Of a stretch of DNA of 21,131 nucleotides, positions 967-9,961 are shown piece by piece. Where the stretch lies: the IMG/VR virus record IMGVR_UViG_3300030098_003514, positions 1 to 21,131 of that record; one strand, written 5' to 3'. A model generated the notes under the pieces. The model saw only the letters and a program-made list of their open reading frames with translations, was not told where the DNA came from and ran no database searches. The first letter of the stretch is position 1. Each line of letters opens with the position of its first letter. Position numbers and translations under genes: made by a program. The DNA comes from a virus.

Positions 967-1785
967 ATGAGCTTATTAGGTAGATCATCCTCTTTATCCC
1001 CATACGCTGGCCCTTATGTGTCAGAGATGTTGGGGCGCGGTGCGGCACTAGCCGATATGCCTTACACCGCATATCAAGGCCCACTCACGGCTGGCCCTTC
1101 TTCTCTGCAAAACCAAATGTTTCAGGGATTAGCAGGGTTGGCCGTTCCTACCGCTACTATGACAGGTTCTTTTACAGGACAAGCACCCACTCTCCCAACC
1201 GCACAAAATGTGATGGACGGTGGTGCACCTTTGTCAGGGGCGGCTGCAAGCTCTGCAAGTCCTGTTTCTCAATACATGAATCCCTACATTGATGCTGCGC
1301 TCAATCCGGCAATAAGACGGGTACAGGAAGAAACAGCAAAAGCACAGCAAAACCTGCAAAGTCAATACGCTCAAGCAGGGGCATACGGAGGTGGACGACA
1401 GGCTGTAGCCGAAGCAGGTTTACAGAATCGTGCCTTGGATAGGATTGGAGATATAACAGCGCAGGGTTATGCAACAGCTTATGATAAAGCAGCTGATATG
1501 TTTGATAGGGAACGTAACTACGGATTACGTGCTTTAGACGCAATGGGTAGGGGAGGAGCACAACAAAGAGGCATTGAACAGGCAGGAATTACTGCCGATT
1601 TACGCCAATTTGAGCAAGAACGCGACTACCCGTATAGACAAGTACAGTACATGCAGTCTCTATTGCAGGGACTTCCTATCAGTACTCAGGAATATCAATA
1701 CGCCGAACCTTCTGGTCTTTCTAACTTTATGGGAGGATCAGGTGGTATTTTAGGGTTCTTGGATACCATAGGCTTATTTGGATAG
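967..1785 (+). CDS. Helical virion-associated protein, 272 aa
   Basis: A GAGGAA ribosome binding site (955-960) overlaps the previous stop and sits 6 bases before the ATG. The first 100 residues are rich in Gly, Ala, Pro and Ser and look flexible. Residues about 104-225 form a long amphipathic helical region from MNPYIDAALNPAIRRVQEET through AYGGGRQAVAEAG to DYPYRQVQYMQSLLQGLPI. The tail is Gly-rich and hydrophobic (FMGGSGGILGFLDTIGLFG). I recognise the NPYID / GGGRQA / DRERNYGLRALDAM pattern as recurrent in phage late-gene clusters, where it is usually left as hypothetical or structural. No catalytic motif is visible. Its place between two other late genes supports a virion or DNA-delivery role, which is inference. 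Confidence 0.75.
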   Translation: MSLLGRSSSLSPYAGPYVSEMLGRGAALADMPYTAYQGPLTAGPSSLQNQMFQGLAGLAVPTATMTGSFTGQAPTLPTAQNVMDGGAPLSGAAASSASPVSQYMNPYIDAALNPAIRRVQEETAKAQQNLQSQYAQAGAYGGGRQAVAEAGLQNRALDRIGDITAQGYATAYDKAADMFDRERNYGLRALDAMGRGGAQQRGIEQAGITADLRQFEQERDYPYRQVQYMQSLLQGLPISTQEYQYAEPSGLSNFMGGSGGILGFLDTIGLFG

Positions 1786-1804: not shown

Positions 1805-3487
1805 ATGGTTGGTATAGATAGAGAAATACAAACGCGGATGGATGCAGCCAACGGTAACCCACAAGCTGCAATGCAACGTTACGGGAAGTCACAATCAGTC
1901 TTAGACCTAATCTCTGCACAACTTCTTGCCAACCAGAATGCGGAAGCTGACAACGCAATAAAAGCTATGTTCACTGGTTCCAACCAGACCGAATTACAAC
2001 GGCTGAACCAAAAAAATGCTGCTTCTGCCCAGAACGATGTTATGCGTGCCATCATGCCCGGAGTTGCTCAAAAAGCAGCACGCGATCAACAGGCTATGCA
2101 ACGCCGAGCTATGGGTATACCAAGCCAACCTGCACCAAATATGCGTATGGCTGACGGTGGGATTGTTGGGTTTAAAAAAGGCGCTCCAATACTGAGTGAC
2201 AGACCCACACCCCAAGGAAAACCCAATGCTGCTTCCCAAGATGCAGAGGCTAAAGATATAGATAACTATATTAAAGCGTATAGAGCCTACGAAGCTAGTC
2301 TAGCTAATGCACCTACAGCCGAAGAAAAACAAGACGTAGAAGCTAGGTTTAAGATAAGCCAACAAGGTTTTGATTCTGGTATTAGGACAAAAGCACACCA
2401 GAAAATGTCTGCTGAATCTAGTATGAAAGGTATGGATGATTTTCAGGGCGGCGGTGTTGTTGCACTTGGAGAGGGTGGAGTACTTTCTTTTGGTAATGGA
2501 GGTGGTATAGGCCGAGCTTATTTAGACCCAGAAACAGGCGAACCTTTGGGGGGATTCGATAGAATAAAACGTCTTTATCAAGGAATAACAGGACAATTAA
2601 CCGCAGAAGATTTGTATCAAAACCCTGATGCTATGACTCGTGAAGAACTGGATAATTTTCCTAGCCCAGCAGAAATACGTAGAGCTAGGTATAACGTACC
2701 TGAAGCAGAAAGACTTTCTCCTCAAGAACTTAATACCATGAATCAGGAAGAGAGACGAGAGCGTTTAGTAAACCGTGCATTGAGACGGCGTGGGGAACAA
2801 ACGCCAGAAAAAACTGCCGGAATTGCTGGGACTATGCCTGATGTTTTTAATGTAGCAAGTATGGTAGAGAATTTAGGGAAGCCTCAAGAGGAGTCTGAGG
2901 AGTTCCGTATGAAAGGCGTGACTGATGCAAGAAAACAGGAAGAGCCTGTTGCACGGCGTGGTCTGGCTGGATTACTTGATAAGATAGAAGAAAACGCTGA
3001 TATGAATCGCCTACGAGCTTTCCTACGTGGAGGGGCTGGCCAAACTAGTGTAGCAAATGCACTGGCTGCGGCTGATAGAGGTTTAGCAGCAGAGGACTTA
3101 CGCCAACGTCAATTAGATATACAAGAGACAGACGTACTAGGACGCATAGCCGCATCACGTTACGGTTCAGAACTAGATTATCGTGCAGCACTAGCTAACC
3201 TACGCCAAGACGAACGAGAAATGATCTATAAAGCAGATCGTGAGTTAGAAAAACAGTACTTGGGAGCTGAACAAGACGCGGCTAAAACTTTTTTGTCCAA
3301 CCTAGACGATAGCGAATTATTTAGTTCACAATTTATGCGCTTACAACAAGAATTTGAAGGAGCGCAATTAGCTGCTGAAACTGCTGCCCTTAGAGAAAGG
3401 TTGCTTGATGATTATATGAACTCATATAGAAGAAGCGGGTTGGGAGTATCTACTGGCACTTTTGGATATACACCTCCGTCTGAGTAA
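1805..3487 (+). CDS. Gln/Arg/Glu-rich virion-associated protein, 560 aa
   Basis: The frame is open from a TTG at 1778, which would overlap the previous gene by 8 bases. I prefer the ATG at 1805 because GGAG (1794-1797) lies 7 bases upstream and TTG has no ribosome binding site. The N-terminal 110 residues are Gln/Ala/Met-rich helix. Two Gly-rich segments follow: ADGGIVGF near residues 116-123 and GGGVVALGEGGVLSFGNGGG near 214-233. Both are of a kind often repeated in virion proteins of marine phages. The rest is charged and helical, with dense Arg/Glu/Gln (residues 380-540), suggesting long coiled coil. No enzyme signature is seen. The protein is probably a structural or internal virion component; its exact role is unknown. 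Confidence 0.75.
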   Translation: MVGIDREIQTRMDAANGNPQAAMQRYGKSQSVLDLISAQLLANQNAEADNAIKAMFTGSNQTELQRLNQKNAASAQNDVMRAIMPGVAQKAARDQQAMQRRAMGIPSQPAPNMRMADGGIVGFKKGAPILSDRPTPQGKPNAASQDAEAKDIDNYIKAYRAYEASLANAPTAEEKQDVEARFKISQQGFDSGIRTKAHQKMSAESSMKGMDDFQGGGVVALGEGGVLSFGNGGGIGRAYLDPETGEPLGGFDRIKRLYQGITGQLTAEDLYQNPDAMTREELDNFPSPAEIRRARYNVPEAERLSPQELNTMNQEERRERLVNRALRRRGEQTPEKTAGIAGTMPDVFNVASMVENLGKPQEESEEFRMKGVTDARKQEEPVARRGLAGLLDKIEENADMNRLRAFLRGGAGQTSVANALAAADRGLAAEDLRQRQLDIQETDVLGRIAASRYGSELDYRAALANLRQDEREMIYKADRELEKQYLGAEQDAAKTFLSNLDDSELFSSQFMRLQQEFEGAQLAAETAALRERLLDDYMNSYRRSGLGVSTGTFGYTPPSE

Positions 3488-3499
3488 AGGAAGTTATCT

Positions 3500-6400
3500 A
3501 TGCCTATCGCTACAGGAACAGCACCTTCAGGGGAAAAGTTTGAATTTTATGTGCCTAAAGGTACTCCTGACGAACAAGGCCCAGCGTTAGCAAGGGATGC
3601 TTACTTCAGATTACGCCAAGGTATTGACGTTACACTACCCCCTCCCCCTCCAGAAAGCACCATCGGTGGGGAACTCATGCGGGGTGGGGAATCTCTTTTT
3701 TCTGCTTTACGTACTGCTGGGGGTGCAGCTTTTGGGGATGACGAAGCAGCCGCACTGGCAGGGTTGGAGCGAAGCGAAGACATAGCACAACGCTACGGTG
3801 AAGGCCCATCTTTCCAGAAAGTACTAGATGCTGAAGGAATAATGCCTACTGTAGGCACTGCGCTAGGTCAGATTCCACAAGCAGTTGCGGGTCAAGTTCC
3901 ACAAATACTTACCACAGTTGCTGCGGCAAAAGCAGGGGCACTAGCGGGTGCTGGAATAGGTTCTTTTTTCCCCGGTATAGGCACAGCCATAGGTGCTGGA
4001 ATAGGCGCAGGTGTTGGCGGTCTTGCTTCTCTTATACCTCAATTTACTGGGTACAATCTTGAACGTCAGGCTCAAGCCGACATAGACGAAGGCCGTCCGG
4101 TAGATGTAGACCTTGGTAAAGCTGCTGGTACAGCCGCCTTACAATCAGTGCCAGAGTTAGCGGGACAGTACTTTATCTTAGGTAAAGGTCTTGTAAACAA
4201 GTTGGTACAAGGAGATGTTACAAAGTTAAGCGCCACTCAGCTACGAGGAGCTGCGGAAAAACTAGTGCGGGAGGCAGACTTAGGTACAGCTAAAACTATA
4301 GGGCGAGGCATTGCTAGAGGTGCGGGTGTAGAGATGCCTACAGAAGTGGCTCAACAAGTTTTGGAAAGAGCACAAGCTGGCCTAGATGTACTATCTCCTG
4401 AAGCTCTTTCTGAATACGGTGAAGCAGCTTACCTTGCTGCTACTGTTGGCGGTACACTTGGCCCGATGGGTGCTTTAGGTAGTCGATCACGAGCGCGAAG
4501 ATTACGTGAAGAGCTGAGTGGACGTGAAGACACTGTTGCAGAACCTGTTACAACTGGGACTGATCTCGTACCTGTCCCAGAACCCCCATTGGAAGGAGAA
4601 GTTCTTCCCCCTACTTCTCCCGTTCCTCCCGCTTTGCCTCAAGGAACATATCGCTTACCCCCACCCCCCACTGGAGATGGTTCGGCTATATTAGTTGACC
4701 CACAAGGTAGGGCGTACCCTGAAAGGTTCGCAGCCGCATTTGAAGAAGCGATTGCCAATGAAGAAAAATTAAGAAGTGAGGGTGCACAACGCGAGTTATT
4801 TACGGAGATTATGGCTGAAGAAAAAACAGCTATAACTAAAGAAGATTTAGAAGGTTTAGGTATTACAAGCACTAAGTTAAAGAAAGAACTTCCTGCACTT
4901 GATTTGGCTGACCCACAAGATGCCCGTACTGCTGTAGAAACCATCGTTAATTATGCAAATAACCCTACAGTAAAATCTCGTTACAGAGATAGTCGAAATA
5001 AAGTATTGGGTTTACTTAACATGCCCATACTAACGAGAGCAGAAACGTTAGCCGCAAGAGAAAGCGCACAACAAGAAGCAGGTGAAATAGCTTCTGAAAT
5101 GGATCAGATTGTTCGTGGAGATGCACCGGGACAAGTAACTATAGAAGAAGGTATTGAACAGGATGTTATTCAGGAACAACAGGAAGCAGCTTTTACACAG
5201 CGCGAACAAGAACGTGCAGAAGACTTACAAGCGTTGGCAGCAACGATGGAAGCAGGACAAGATTCTTCTGTAGAACCTACGCTAGGTGCAGTTTTACGAG
5301 AAGCGCAACAAGAACAAGATCGTACTGGCCGTCCAGTAGAGGGACAAGCGCAATTAGAGATACCACAAGTAGACCCTGCTGACCCTGCTGCTCAAGCACA
5401 AGCAGAAAGCAATCGTTTAGATCAGGAGATTGCAGAACAACAACGCATACTTGAAAAACTAGAAGAACAAAGACAAGAACAAGTAGAAATGCTTGGCCCT
5501 CGTGGAGGAATCCTACGACCTAATCGAAGAGAAAACGTTAAGAACGCCACAAACGAAGAGGCACAAGCAGCTAAAGAAGAAGCTACTACTGTCGAGTCAG
5601 AACCACAGGCAACTGGCGATACTCGTAACGCAACAGAAGAAAGCGTAGCTCAACAACAAGTTGACAAAGAATTAGACGAAGAAAAAATCCGAGCAGAGTT
5701 TGAGACAATAGAAACCCAAGAGGAAATGTTAAGTTTTCTTTCGGGTGTTGCTTATGATTCCATTGATGGAACTGCCCAACAAAAAGCAGCCGCAAGAGCT
5801 AAAGTAGCGTGGATTCAACAAAACACTTCTGAAAGCACTAGAAAAAATTTAGAGGCTATGCAGCGCAGTATACAAAGTGACTTGGGTATGCCTCTCCCAA
5901 TGAAGAAACTAGTGGGAGCAGCGGCTGTTTTAGACCCAGAAGTTACCCAGCTACTACGAGAAGGGAAACTGGCAGAAGCTCTGGAACTACTTGGCAATAA
6001 TCAGGATAAAGATGTACGAAGAGTTGCCAGAGCCATCAACAAAGCCATTGCAGAAAGTGGTACTAAGGTTACATTCCAACCGAACTTGATGGATGGGAAA
6101 GGGCGTTTGTTGGCAGGTATGTTCGATCCTAGAACTAATACTATTATTCTTAACGAAAGCATACCCCCTACTAACCACGCTTTGTTGCACGAATCCTTGC
6201 ACGCTGTTACTTCACACGTAATTGCTAACAAAAGCAGTTCAACTACTAAACAGTTACAGACACTCTTTGATAGTGTTAAAGACAGATTAGAAGACGCTTA
6301 CGGTACTACTAACCTTGACGAATTTGTTGCCGAGGCTTTTTCCAACCCAGAGTTCCAAGCCAAACTAGCTTCTATGGACACCAACGGAGACAAGTTAGGG

Positions 6401-9400
6401 ACATGGGAGCGATTCAAGAATATAGTGGCTAACGTAATTCGCGTATTACGCCGTCTTCCTACAAAGAAATTGAACTCAGCAATGAGTGAAGTAGATAAGA
6501 TAGTAGGGGACATGATCTCTCCTGCTCCTCAATACCGTAACGCTCCTGCTATGAACCTAGCGGTAACGGCAGGTAAAGAAGATGCCTTTATGGATGACGT
6601 ATTTGACGGATATGGGGGTAAGGTTCCGCAAGATGCGGCTTCTATATTTAATGCGTATATGCCAGAAGCTCCCACTAACGCTCGTAGATTCTTTTTTAAT
6701 GTACTACCTTTAAACTCCATAGCTGATTGGGCTAAACAAAGTAACAACGAAGGTATACAAGACTTAGGCAGAGCTTTAGATGAACTGTTTAAAGTTATCC
6801 AACAAAAGAATGGCTCTAGGCAAAAATATTTATTGAAAAATAAAGACATGGCGAGGCGGTTTGAAAAAGTACTTAAGCAGTTAGGGGAAAACCAACGCAA
6901 ACTTTTTAACTTTGTAGTTGAAGAAAGTACTTTACTTAGGATAGACCCTTCCAGAGAAAACGCTAAAGAGTACTATACAGGGTATCGTTACACTGTCGTA
7001 GATAAAGACGGTAACAGAAATACTTATCATTTTCCAACTGCGGAAAAAAGAGATGCGGCTTTTGAGAAAGAACAAGCTAAGAATGATAAGTTGCCAAAAG
7101 AAGAACAATCAAAGTTCGGTAAGATAAACCCTAGCGAAGAAGCAGAAAAAGACTACAACAATATAATGGAGTACTGGAATAGGCTTGATCCAAAAGCAAA
7201 AGCGGTGTACGTAGAGTTACGAGATGCTTATTCAGATGCTTACGAAGATTTACGTAAAGCCTTGGTAGCACGTATTGATGGAGTTAAAACCGATTCTGAA
7301 GAAGCGGTACAAGCAAAACAATTATACAAAGATAAAATTTTACTGGATCTTTTAAACAAAGAACTTATAGAACCTTATTTTCCGTTGTTTAGAAAAGGCG
7401 ATTTTTGGTACACCCATAATGGTTTTGACCCAATTACAGGACAACCTGAAGTATTTAAAACTGCTTTCGACTCTAGGGAAGACAGGCGGCGGTACGAACA
7501 AGCTATCTTGCAAGACACAAGACTAAGAGAAGAATTACTTACAAGTGAAGCAGGTATTATTGTTGAAGCTAGAAAAAGAGGACGGGAAGCACTACTAGCA
7601 GATAATCCTAATGCCACTCCTGAACAGATACAGGAAGCAGAATTTAGAGCTGCTTTGGAGGGTTCGACGTTAAATCGCCCTCAAGTTGACGCATCAGAAC
7701 GTTCTTCCGTAGAGATTCGATGGGCACAAGGGCTACTTGCAGATGTACAATCGAAAAAGAACCAAGCCGCAGAAAAAGCCAAACAAAAAATATTAGCTAA
7801 AGCTAAAGAAGAAAATAGAGAACCCACACCTGAAGAACTTGCAGCCGCAGAAGCCAAGTTTGAGCAAGTAATGGAGGCGGGTAATGCCTTTGATAGTATT
7901 TTACAAAATGCTCTTATTGACGCAATGCCAGAGCGTTCTTTGTACCGCGCTTTTAAACGCAGAGAAAATATTCGTGGAGCACAAAGAGATGCTATTGATG
8001 TGTTCCGTCAACGTATGCCAGCTTTTATGGGGCAAGTAGATAATTTAAAGTTTGATGCTCCTTTTGACCAAGTTAAAACTAATTTAAAGAATTTACAAAC
8101 AAAGGTTACTGGTAGTCAGGGCGAACTGGACTACGCGGAACAGTTGGTTAGGAAAGGGACAGAATACATAGACTTTGTTAAAAACCCTAAAATAAGCACT
8201 TGGGCTAGAGGGTTGAAATCATTTGGGTTCTTGATGACGTTAGGTTTTAATGCTTCTTCTGCTGTAGTTAACTCTTTCATCTTACCCATTGTAGTGTTGC
8301 CTTATTTAGCAGGACGCTATGGGATGAGTGACACGATGGCAGCTATGATAGAAGCTAAAAAATTGTATTTTGGCGCTGGTCTTAAACGCAGGGTAGAGGG
8401 ACTTGAAGACCTTGAAGGGCTTGAAGGCGCAGACCTAGATGCGGAGTTAAAGAAACGAGGTTTGACCAAAGATGACCTATATGCGATTGATGGGCCTAGC
8501 CTCGCCAACCTTGATCTTGAAAACTTACCGGAAAAATATGCAGAACTTAAGCCTCTAATAAGAGAACTTGTTGACAGAGGAGCAGCTAACGCAACTACTA
8601 TTGGAGACATGCTAGACGTAGACGACCCAACGGGTGGGAAGTTTGGTCGAATTTTAACTGCTGTAAACGGAATTTCTGGGTTTATGTTTCACCAAGGAGA
8701 AAGGTTCAATAGACAAGTTACAGCGATGGCTGCGTACAAACTAGCGTTGGATAAAGCTAAAGCAAATAGCAAACTAGAAACTGTAAGAAAACCTCCAAAA
8801 GAAGGTGCTACTAAAGAGCAGATTCGTAAATACGAAGCCTATTTGGAAAAAGTACACGCATTAGGTAGTGATTTTGTAAACGAGGTAATGCTTGACGTTG
8901 AGCATACTAACAGTGGTGCATTAATAGAAACAGCTCCTACAATCGCACAAAAAGATATTGCAAGTGTACTTCTTATGTACAAACGATTTGGTGTGTCTAT
9001 GGCATATCTGCAAATAAAGATGGCTAAACAAGCATTTACGCGAATGGGAAATTTTGATCCAGACGAACGAGCACAAGCTAAAAAACAAATTGCTGGGTTG
9101 CTTGGTATATCTGGCTTGTTGGCTGGAGCACAAGGGTTACCTCTTTATGGCATATTTGCAGACGTATTTAATCTCTTACTGCTAGACGATCAAGATGATG
9201 ATTTCGATAGCATTGTAGCCGCTAACATCGGAGAAAACGCTTATTCAGGTATACTCAATCAAATTTTTGATGTGGACATCGCCCCTCGTATCGGCATGAG
9301 TAATTTAATATTTAGGTCGCTACCTAATAGGTCAAATACAGATTCGTTCCAATACTTTATGGAAATGGCAGGTGGCCCTGTTTACGGTATAGTGGATCGT

Positions 9401-9937
9401 ATGTTCCGCAGTAGAGACCTTATGGCTGAAGGCGAATACAGACGTGGGTTGGAGGGAATGTTACCTGCGATTTTTTCAGGGCCATCGAAAAGTATCCGCT
9501 ATGCTACTGAGGGTGCACGTACTCTACGAGGTGATCCGATTACAGAAAACTTATCAACACGTTCTATTATTGGGCAATTCCTTGGGTTTGCCCCTGCTGA
9601 CTACACGAAACAACTAGAGCTAAACGCACGAGATAAACGTATAGACAGAAACATTAGTGAGAAAAGAACTAAGTTGTTACGTCAACGTTACATGGCTTTC
9701 CGTGAAGGAGACTTTACAGGAGTGCTTGACGCGGATAGGGAGATAATGGAGTTCAACATGGAAAACCCTGAAGTAAGGATTACAGGGTCTACGAAGAGCA
9801 GGTCGTTAAGACAACACCGCATAACCTCTATGATAGCACGCAGACTAGGGGGTATAACGGTGAACCGACAACGTTTGAACGCTGTTATTCGTAAACGCCT
9901 CCAAGAACTGGGCGAAGATGACTTTTATGTAGGGTAA
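3500..9937 (+). CDS. Giant internal virion protein (large polyvalent protein type) with HExxH metallopeptidase signature, 2145 aa
   Basis: AAGGAAG lies just upstream of the ATG. Segments in order: a short N-terminal module; a glycine-zipper hydrophobic stretch (residues about 138-180, AGAGIGSFFPGIGTAIGAG) that could enter a membrane; a Pro-rich linker (about 355-393); a Gln/Glu-rich coiled-coil-like region (about 510-735); and a metallopeptidase-like domain with HESLH at 897-901 and EFVAE at 941-945, whose Glu could be the third zinc ligand. A long helical region follows, with two further hydrophobic stretches (about 1574-1605 and 1864-1896). The C-terminus is basic and helical. The size, architecture and segments such as YFPLFRKGDFW resemble phage large polyvalent proteins, and T7 gp16 offers a functional analogy for DNA ejection. 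No lytic transglycosylase motif was found. That it is packaged and ejected is inference. Confidence 0.8.
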   Translation: MPIATGTAPSGEKFEFYVPKGTPDEQGPALARDAYFRLRQGIDVTLPPPPPESTIGGELMRGGESLFSALRTAGGAAFGDDEAAALAGLERSEDIAQRYGEGPSFQKVLDAEGIMPTVGTALGQIPQAVAGQVPQILTTVAAAKAGALAGAGIGSFFPGIGTAIGAGIGAGVGGLASLIPQFTGYNLERQAQADIDEGRPVDVDLGKAAGTAALQSVPELAGQYFILGKGLVNKLVQGDVTKLSATQLRGAAEKLVREADLGTAKTIGRGIARGAGVEMPTEVAQQVLERAQAGLDVLSPEALSEYGEAAYLAATVGGTLGPMGALGSRSRARRLREELSGREDTVAEPVTTGTDLVPVPEPPLEGEVLPPTSPVPPALPQGTYRLPPPPTGDGSAILVDPQGRAYPERFAAAFEEAIANEEKLRSEGAQRELFTEIMAEEKTAITKEDLEGLGITSTKLKKELPALDLADPQDARTAVETIVNYANNPTVKSRYRDSRNKVLGLLNMPILTRAETLAARESAQQEAGEIASEMDQIVRGDAPGQVTIEEGIEQDVIQEQQEAAFTQREQERAEDLQALAATMEAGQDSSVEPTLGAVLREAQQEQDRTGRPVEGQAQLEIPQVDPADPAAQAQAESNRLDQEIAEQQRILEKLEEQRQEQVEMLGPRGGILRPNRRENVKNATNEEAQAAKEEATTVESEPQATGDTRNATEESVAQQQVDKELDEEKIRAEFETIETQEEMLSFLSGVAYDSIDGTAQQKAAARAKVAWIQQNTSESTRKNLEAMQRSIQSDLGMPLPMKKLVGAAAVLDPEVTQLLREGKLAEALELLGNNQDKDVRRVARAINKAIAESGTKVTFQPNLMDGKGRLLAGMFDPRTNTIILNESIPPTNHALLHESLHAVTSHVIANKSSSTTKQLQTLFDSVKDRLEDAYGTTNLDEFVAEAFSNPEFQAKLASMDTNGDKLGTWERFKNIVANVIRVLRRLPTKKLNSAMSEVDKIVGDMISPAPQYRNAPAMNLAVTAGKEDAFMDDVFDGYGGKVPQDAASIFNAYMPEAPTNARRFFFNVLPLNSIADWAKQSNNEGIQDLGRALDELFKVIQQKNGSRQKYLLKNKDMARRFEKVLKQLGENQRKLFNFVVEESTLLRIDPSRENAKEYYTGYRYTVVDKDGNRNTYHFPTAEKRDAAFEKEQAKNDKLPKEEQSKFGKINPSEEAEKDYNNIMEYWNRLDPKAKAVYVELRDAYSDAYEDLRKALVARIDGVKTDSEEAVQAKQLYKDKILLDLLNKELIEPYFPLFRKGDFWYTHNGFDPITGQPEVFKTAFDSREDRRRYEQAILQDTRLREELLTSEAGIIVEARKRGREALLADNPNATPEQIQEAEFRAALEGSTLNRPQVDASERSSVEIRWAQGLLADVQSKKNQAAEKAKQKILAKAKEENREPTPEELAAAEAKFEQVMEAGNAFDSILQNALIDAMPERSLYRAFKRRENIRGAQRDAIDVFRQRMPAFMGQVDNLKFDAPFDQVKTNLKNLQTKVTGSQGELDYAEQLVRKGTEYIDFVKNPKISTWARGLKSFGFLMTLGFNASSAVVNSFILPIVVLPYLAGRYGMSDTMAAMIEAKKLYFGAGLKRRVEGLEDLEGLEGADLDAELKKRGLTKDDLYAIDGPSLANLDLENLPEKYAELKPLIRELVDRGAANATTIGDMLDVDDPTGGKFGRILTAVNGISGFMFHQGERFNRQVTAMAAYKLALDKAKANSKLETVRKPPKEGATKEQIRKYEAYLEKVHALGSDFVNEVMLDVEHTNSGALIETAPTIAQKDIASVLLMYKRFGVSMAYLQIKMAKQAFTRMGNFDPDERAQAKKQIAGLLGISGLLAGAQGLPLYGIFADVFNLLLLDDQDDDFDSIVAANIGENAYSGILNQIFDVDIAPRIGMSNLIFRSLPNRSNTDSFQYFMEMAGGPVYGIVDRMFRSRDLMAEGEYRRGLEGMLPAIFSGPSKSIRYATEGARTLRGDPITENLSTRSIIGQFLGFAPADYTKQLELNARDKRIDRNISEKRTKLLRQRYMAFREGDFTGVLDADREIMEFNMENPEVRITGSTKSRSLRQHRITSMIARRLGGITVNRQRLNAVIRKRLQELGEDDFYVG
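6188..6334 (+). other. HExxH ... E zinc metallopeptidase signature inside the giant virion protein
   Basis: Bases 6188-6202 encode HESLH, and 6320-6334 encode EFVAE about 40 residues later. This matches the gluzincin layout, in which two His from HExxH and a downstream Glu bind zinc and the Glu of HExxH acts as base. The preceding segment (TIILNESIPPTNHALL) fits the strand and helix that normally lead into the motif. Confidence 0.65.
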
Positions 9938-9961
9938 AAAAATGCCCCCACATGGAGGGCA
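9936..9961 (-). terminator. Rho-independent terminator of the minus-strand replication operon
   Basis: Read on the minus strand, bases 9961-9943 form a hairpin (TGCCC pairing with GGGCA, extended by two G-C pairs past a bulged base, loop ATGT). It is followed directly by seven T (9942-9936). The T run overlaps the stop codon of the giant virion gene on the other strand. On the plus strand the hairpin is not followed by a T run, so it should act only on leftward transcripts. Confidence 0.75.

Follow-up and report, generated by a model that had tools for sequence, protein, structure and literature searches.

A predicted zinc-peptidase domain in a giant phage protein recurs in packaged or ejected proteins of short-tailed phages

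The giant gene of an uncultured phage raises the question of whether a five-residue HExxH motif marks a working protease and, if so, what that protease would cut and when. The sequence studied here is a 21-kb virus record (21,131 nucleotides, hereafter the window), and the initial annotation had pointed to a gluzincin-type zinc site, HESLH at residues 897–901 followed by EFVAE, in a 2145-residue protein probably ejected into the host. Translation bears out both motifs, with EFVAE at residues 941–945 (nucleotides 6320–6334), about 40 residues after HESLH, which is the single HExxH in a protein containing just 10 histidines. An HExxH with a Glu 20–60 residues downstream arose in 0.24% of 10,000 shuffles of the protein, and the conservation of the motif, described below, is a stronger argument than this count. 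The features of the gene are:

3500..9937, + strand: giant polyvalent-type protein, 2145 aa (open frame, translation)
3854..4069, + strand: Gly/Ala-rich hydrophobic N-terminal stretch, aa ~119–190, possible membrane-inserting segment (sequence; hydropathy in relatives; weak P22 gp7 match, E 0.099)
5117..5869, + strand: E/Q/A-rich, coiled-coil-like variable linker, aa ~540–790 (composition; low conservation)
5837..6559, + strand: zincin-like metallopeptidase domain, about aa 780–1020 (conserved block; AlphaFold2 pLDDT 85; profile match to ejection-protein domains)
6188..6202, + strand: HESLH, aa 897–901, two predicted zinc-ligand His and putative catalytic Glu898 (invariant in all relatives checked)
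6320..6322, + strand: Glu941, likely the third residue binding zinc (shared with T7-like, N4-like and crAss-like relatives and with the PDB chains)
6332..6334, + strand: Glu945 (restricted to the nearer clade and several crAss-like proteins)
6788..7330, + strand: LPD39 domain, aa 1097–1277 (Pfam PF18858, 29.9 bits, cut-off 27)
7790..9907, + strand: PLxRFG-type helical C-terminal part, aa 1431–2136 (NCBIfam NF032893, E 6.6e-88; phrog_10089; hhalign 1e-101 to Skulduggery/SopranoGao)

The AlphaFold2 model of the domain (48 aligned domains, pTM 0.78) places in order an N-terminal helix, three strands, the HExxH helix and the Glu helix. In domain numbering, the N-terminal helix (66–82) flanks a three-stranded sheet (85–89, 102–105 and 110–114), the first C-terminal helix (121–138) bears H126, E127 and H130, equivalent to residues 897, 898 and 901, and the next conserved helix (168–177) bears E170, equivalent to E941. 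HExxH and Glu thus lie on the helices expected of a zincin, an arrangement in which the predicted ligands would converge. Foldseek against the PDB ranked the zinc-dependent lethal factor, a known zinc protease, first (probability 0.91, E 0.027), with N4 vRNAP gp50 (rank 10), MATCAP and deuterolysin at lower ranks; TM-scores were low and no PDB match reached E 0.001. Against BFVD, 24 matches fell below 0.001, including phi14:2 S0A048, phiKMV-like and Bordetella internal proteins, a Vibrio vRNAP and several LPD proteins, while a crAss-like ‘RNAP associated protein fused to zincin protease’ was found at E 0.011. The Pfam model Tox-MPTase4 (PF15640) scored 16.8 bits, below its gathering cut-off of 25.

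Searching viral contigs with the domain region gave 80 loci which, together with the window’s own region (L001), phi14:2 and cr55_1, make 83 rows. H897, E898 and H901 are kept in all 83, and HExxH was not among the search patterns. DEFVAEAF was such a pattern and its literal string occurs in 81 of the 83 rows, so that the conservation of E941 and E945 in these pattern-selected rows is biased and was rejected as evidence. Free of this bias, E941 is supported by L082, L083, L087–L090 and L093, by the T7-like and N4-like relatives and by three PDB chains; L087–L090 and L093, found through the C-terminal half and absent from the earlier set, keep both HExxH and EF..E, while L091 and L092 start downstream of the domain and are therefore uninformative on the motif. 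The genome-contig scan gave just two matches, both of them MAG contigs whose host is not clear; each keeps HExxH and EF..E, and each was selected on DEFVAEAF. The most conserved 50-residue block, 901–950, is partly inflated by the search pattern, and comparison of near relatives shows purifying selection on the domain core. Every relative with a readable domain carries H897, E898 and H901 and has Glu at 941, so none was found to lack the residues on which the zinc site depends, and the T7-like and N4-like relatives have G, T, W or Y in place of E945. The zinc-site Glu had initially been placed at either E941 or E945; because distant relatives keep E941 and lose E945, the former is likely the third zinc ligand, and E945 was rejected in this role. 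We infer a gluzincin-type zinc peptidase, with zinc bound by H897, H901 and E941 and with E898 as general base. That the domain is homologous to zincins is hardly in doubt, and its catalytic activity, judged from sequence, is probable.

The same domain was found well beyond the window’s near relatives. tblastn with the domain recovered crAss-like structural proteins, Variovorax phages and a P. putida T7-like ‘internal virion protein with endolysin domain’, and gave weak matches to N4-like Pectobacterium vRNAPs; profile searches confirmed all of these. Profile–profile probabilities were 100 for the crAss-like, 99.8 for the T7-like and 99.4 for the N4-like relatives, with column-shuffled controls below 1. 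The first crAss-like and T7-like sets held one and two off-target HExxH stretches, respectively, which dilute but do not create the match; the combined T7/N4 comparison used a clean set and matched the domain with probability 99.6 (E 8e-24). This clean alignment also found three PDB chains, the internal virion protein 9sfn_G (1.4e-26), the PhiM1 tetrameric ejection protein 8vb2_A (7e-11) and gp10 23sg_S (3.5e-8), each of which carries HExxH and a Glu equivalent to E941. In the P. putida phage Ihaste the protein named ‘with endolysin domain’ (L094, 4531–9105) contains the zincin domain and has no Pfam match at E 0.05. The giant protein of Xanthomonas phage SAC (L111, 3289–10311) has two HExxH motifs (943 and 1145 of the open frame) and an N-terminal LPD22.

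Comparison with the closest known systems shows how far the likeness extends. Zincins in polyvalent proteins, including N4 vRNAP, have already been described, in 12 clades (Iyer et al. 2017, PMC5512222), and the window domain resembles these MPTases in its HExxH helix, Glu helix, three-stranded sheet, LPD fusion and late-gene neighbours, differing in its sub-threshold match to Tox-MPTase4. The kind of domain is therefore known, and the window protein adds a member. The C1 domain of N4 vRNAP gp50 (PMC12633501) is likewise an HExxH domain in an ejected giant protein with a large helical part after it, whereas the window protein, for which ejection is predicted, contains no RNA polymerase and its helical C-terminal half is dissimilar in sequence to those of the N4-like relatives. 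The crAss-like, RNAP-associated gp065 of Cellulophaga phage phi14:2, annotated from MS/MS data as present in virions, has a homologous domain with HEIMH and HEFISE but a different architecture and C-terminus, and neighbours a virion RNA polymerase. PhiM1 gp48 (8vb2) and 9sfn_G, both solved virion proteins, share the HExxH...E domain, while C-terminal parts in the T7-like set are not homologous to the window’s by profile. As judged by these profile matches, unrelated short-tailed phages have this conserved domain of zinc-peptidase type in proteins that they package or eject.

The gene neighbourhood bears on whether the window protein is itself packaged and ejected. Upstream of the giant gene lie:

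967..1785, + strand: DNA-ejection-protein homologue, 272 aa, two genes upstream of the giant gene (phrog_4287, E 2.4e-10; orthologue in the relative G003, E 7.8e-11)
1805..3487, + strand: intervening gene, 569-aa ORF with no family assigned (likelier start ATG 1805, with GGAG upstream, rather than TTG 1778)

In the window and its relatives the structural block ends with the giant gene, which faces a replication block on the opposite strand; a terminator-like hairpin with a T tract lies on the minus strand (9943–9961) between these convergent operons. Terminase, portal and major head protein genes are found in the same virus in a relative (G005). The gene of phi14:2 gp065 is also the last of its structural block, and an N4-like record has the same arrangement. 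The window protein thus combines the fusion to an LPD (LPD39, above its cut-off) and the late-gene setting (ejection protein upstream) of polyvalent zincins. Virions of PhiCrAss001 contain RNAP-associated cargo (PMC10172136), N4 vRNAP is ejected (PMC12633501) and the giant vRNAP of DEV is an ejection protein (PMC10925440). The virion-detected crAss-like protein, the N4-like vRNAPs, the T7-like internal proteins, the three solved homologues and the preceding ejection-protein gene together strengthen the earlier guess of ejection, and by analogy with these systems it is likely that the protein is packaged in the capsid of a podovirus-like phage and ejected ahead of the DNA.

Around the peptidase domain, the coiled-coil-like region before it and the half with hydrophobic segments after it are present as initially described, by composition and by the helical character of the C-terminal half. 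Hydrophobic stretches recur at the equivalent of 3854–4069 in many relatives; a PADLOC match to LeoB (E 9e-5) covers only this Gly/Ala-rich stretch and was dismissed. Compared with L003, the linker at residues 351–779 (4550–5836) has a pS of 0.45 and the next domain a pS of 0.03, a contrast that suggests recombination around the linker. NF032893 (PLxRFG) scores 295.8 bits against a curated cut-off of 100. The LPD39-PLxRFG half is homologous over 834 columns to that of the ‘DarB-like’ PLxRFG giants of Skulduggery and SopranoGao, which have an HExxH domain before it but differ in containing SLT and methylase-helicase modules absent from the window protein, their MPTase belonging to a divergent clade (hhalign probability 75). 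Since these giants combine SLT and methylase-helicase modules, HExxH and LPD39-PLxRFG, the window protein looks like a reduced polyvalent protein, consisting of an N-terminal hydrophobic region, variable linker, zincin, LPD39 and PLxRFG part. Pfam detected in it no SLT, the lytic transglycosylase domain of T7 gp16-type ejection proteins, in agreement with the initial reading, which found no such motif elsewhere in the protein, and no DNA methylase or SF2 helicase; no polymerase family of the N4 vRNAP kind was matched in PHROG, NCBIfam or Pfam. An identity as DarB antirestriction protein was rejected, the phrog_10089 match covering only the last ~630 of its 4647 positions, and the label ‘DarB-like antirestriction’ (phrog_10089 and RefSeq phage records) is attached here through the helical PLxRFG C-terminus, not through the methylase-helicase that defines DarB. 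A PDB fold search with the helical C-terminal half gave no match, and the idea that this half is common to the N4-like, T7-like and crAss-like (cr55_1) proteins was also rejected (hhalign probability at most 4%).

What, then, would such a peptidase do? The account that best covers the evidence as a whole, and which we somewhat favour, is a gluzincin in a packaged and ejected polyvalent-type protein that cleaves in cis. Cleavage of the giant polypeptide itself is the most likely job of the domain, although we would put it at a little under an even chance. The cut would probably fall in the fast-evolving linker before the domain (residues ~350–780) and, whether made at packaging or once the protein has been ejected, would separate the membrane-type region at the N terminus from the LPD39/PLxRFG half. 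Three points favour cleavage in cis: the peptidase lies between modules in two divergent lineages, the adjoining linker evolves fastest, and P1 DdrB, which is processed, probably by its own MPTase, offers a precedent (PMC5512222); in very divergent PLxRFG proteins the HExxH domain directly precedes LPD39, a position between modules that would suit a processing peptidase. Against it, the related N4 vRNAP is packaged unprocessed (PMC5512222) and, when purified, is without evidence of degradation (PMC12633501). A zinc site that is a relic or purely structural, with the domain serving packaging, would fit the findings that the N4 MPTase region is needed for encapsidation of a protein that stays uncleaved (PMC5512222) and that the C-terminal domain autoinhibits the polymerase (PMC12633501). 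We consider this unlikely, given that none of the relatives checked departs from E898, a residue that catalysis requires and zinc binding does not. That HESLH is a chance occurrence of a short motif in an unrelated helix is scarcely credible in view of the shuffles, the cross-family conservation and the modelled zincin layout.

Self-processing is at least as likely as an attack on the host, in which the peptidase would act in trans just after ejection, for example by disabling a defence or reprogramming the cell. The family’s resemblance to effector-type zincins (the weak Tox-MPTase4 match and Foldseek) is consistent with a host target, and Iyer et al. offer action after injection as an alternative (PMC5512222), but the T7-like, N4-like and crAss-like phages that share the domain infect very different hosts, which is easier to reconcile with a virion function than with a host-specific target, and a host target seems improbable. 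Less probable still is a role in passage of the cell wall, with the domain acting as a peptidoglycan endopeptidase in aid of the ejectosome. The annotation of related domains as ‘endolysin’ in P. putida T7-like phages and of residues 268–528 of the PhiM1 tetrameric ejection protein (TEP) as ‘endolysin/exotransglycosidase-like’ would fit such a role, as would the window protein’s own want of a lytic transglycosylase by Pfam; however, Titan-X and PLxRFG relatives combine SLT and HExxH domains in one protein, on which ground a zincin substituting for the transglycosylase was rejected, and N4-like vRNAPs have the domain although the polymerase works inside the cell.

Returning to the domain as a putative zinc peptidase, residues 268–528 of PhiM1 gp48 are homologous to window positions 5837–6559 and bear the same HExxH...E signature. 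The published PhiM1 analysis makes no mention of protease, peptidase or HExxH, and uses ‘zinc’ only with regard to nanoparticles. Reassignment of this TEP region to a zinc peptidase is a testable by-product of the sequence comparison and not a demonstrated error. More speculatively, T7-like, N4-like, crAss-like and PLxRFG phages may have in common one zinc peptidase module that works in their ejection machinery and has gone unrecognised there. At least three solved structures of virion or ejection proteins would already contain it, in one case labelled as peptidoglycan-cutting, and its targets, cut as infection begins, would be ejection proteins or a host molecule; we hold this idea only tentatively. 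The sequence comparison links the giant protein of an uncultured phage to a peptidase module met repeatedly among the packaged or ejected proteins of several short-tailed lineages, and the question of its substrate becomes testable in laboratory phages with solved structures. The comparison also suggests that some of the published ‘endolysin’ domains of ejectosomes merit re-examination as zinc peptidases.
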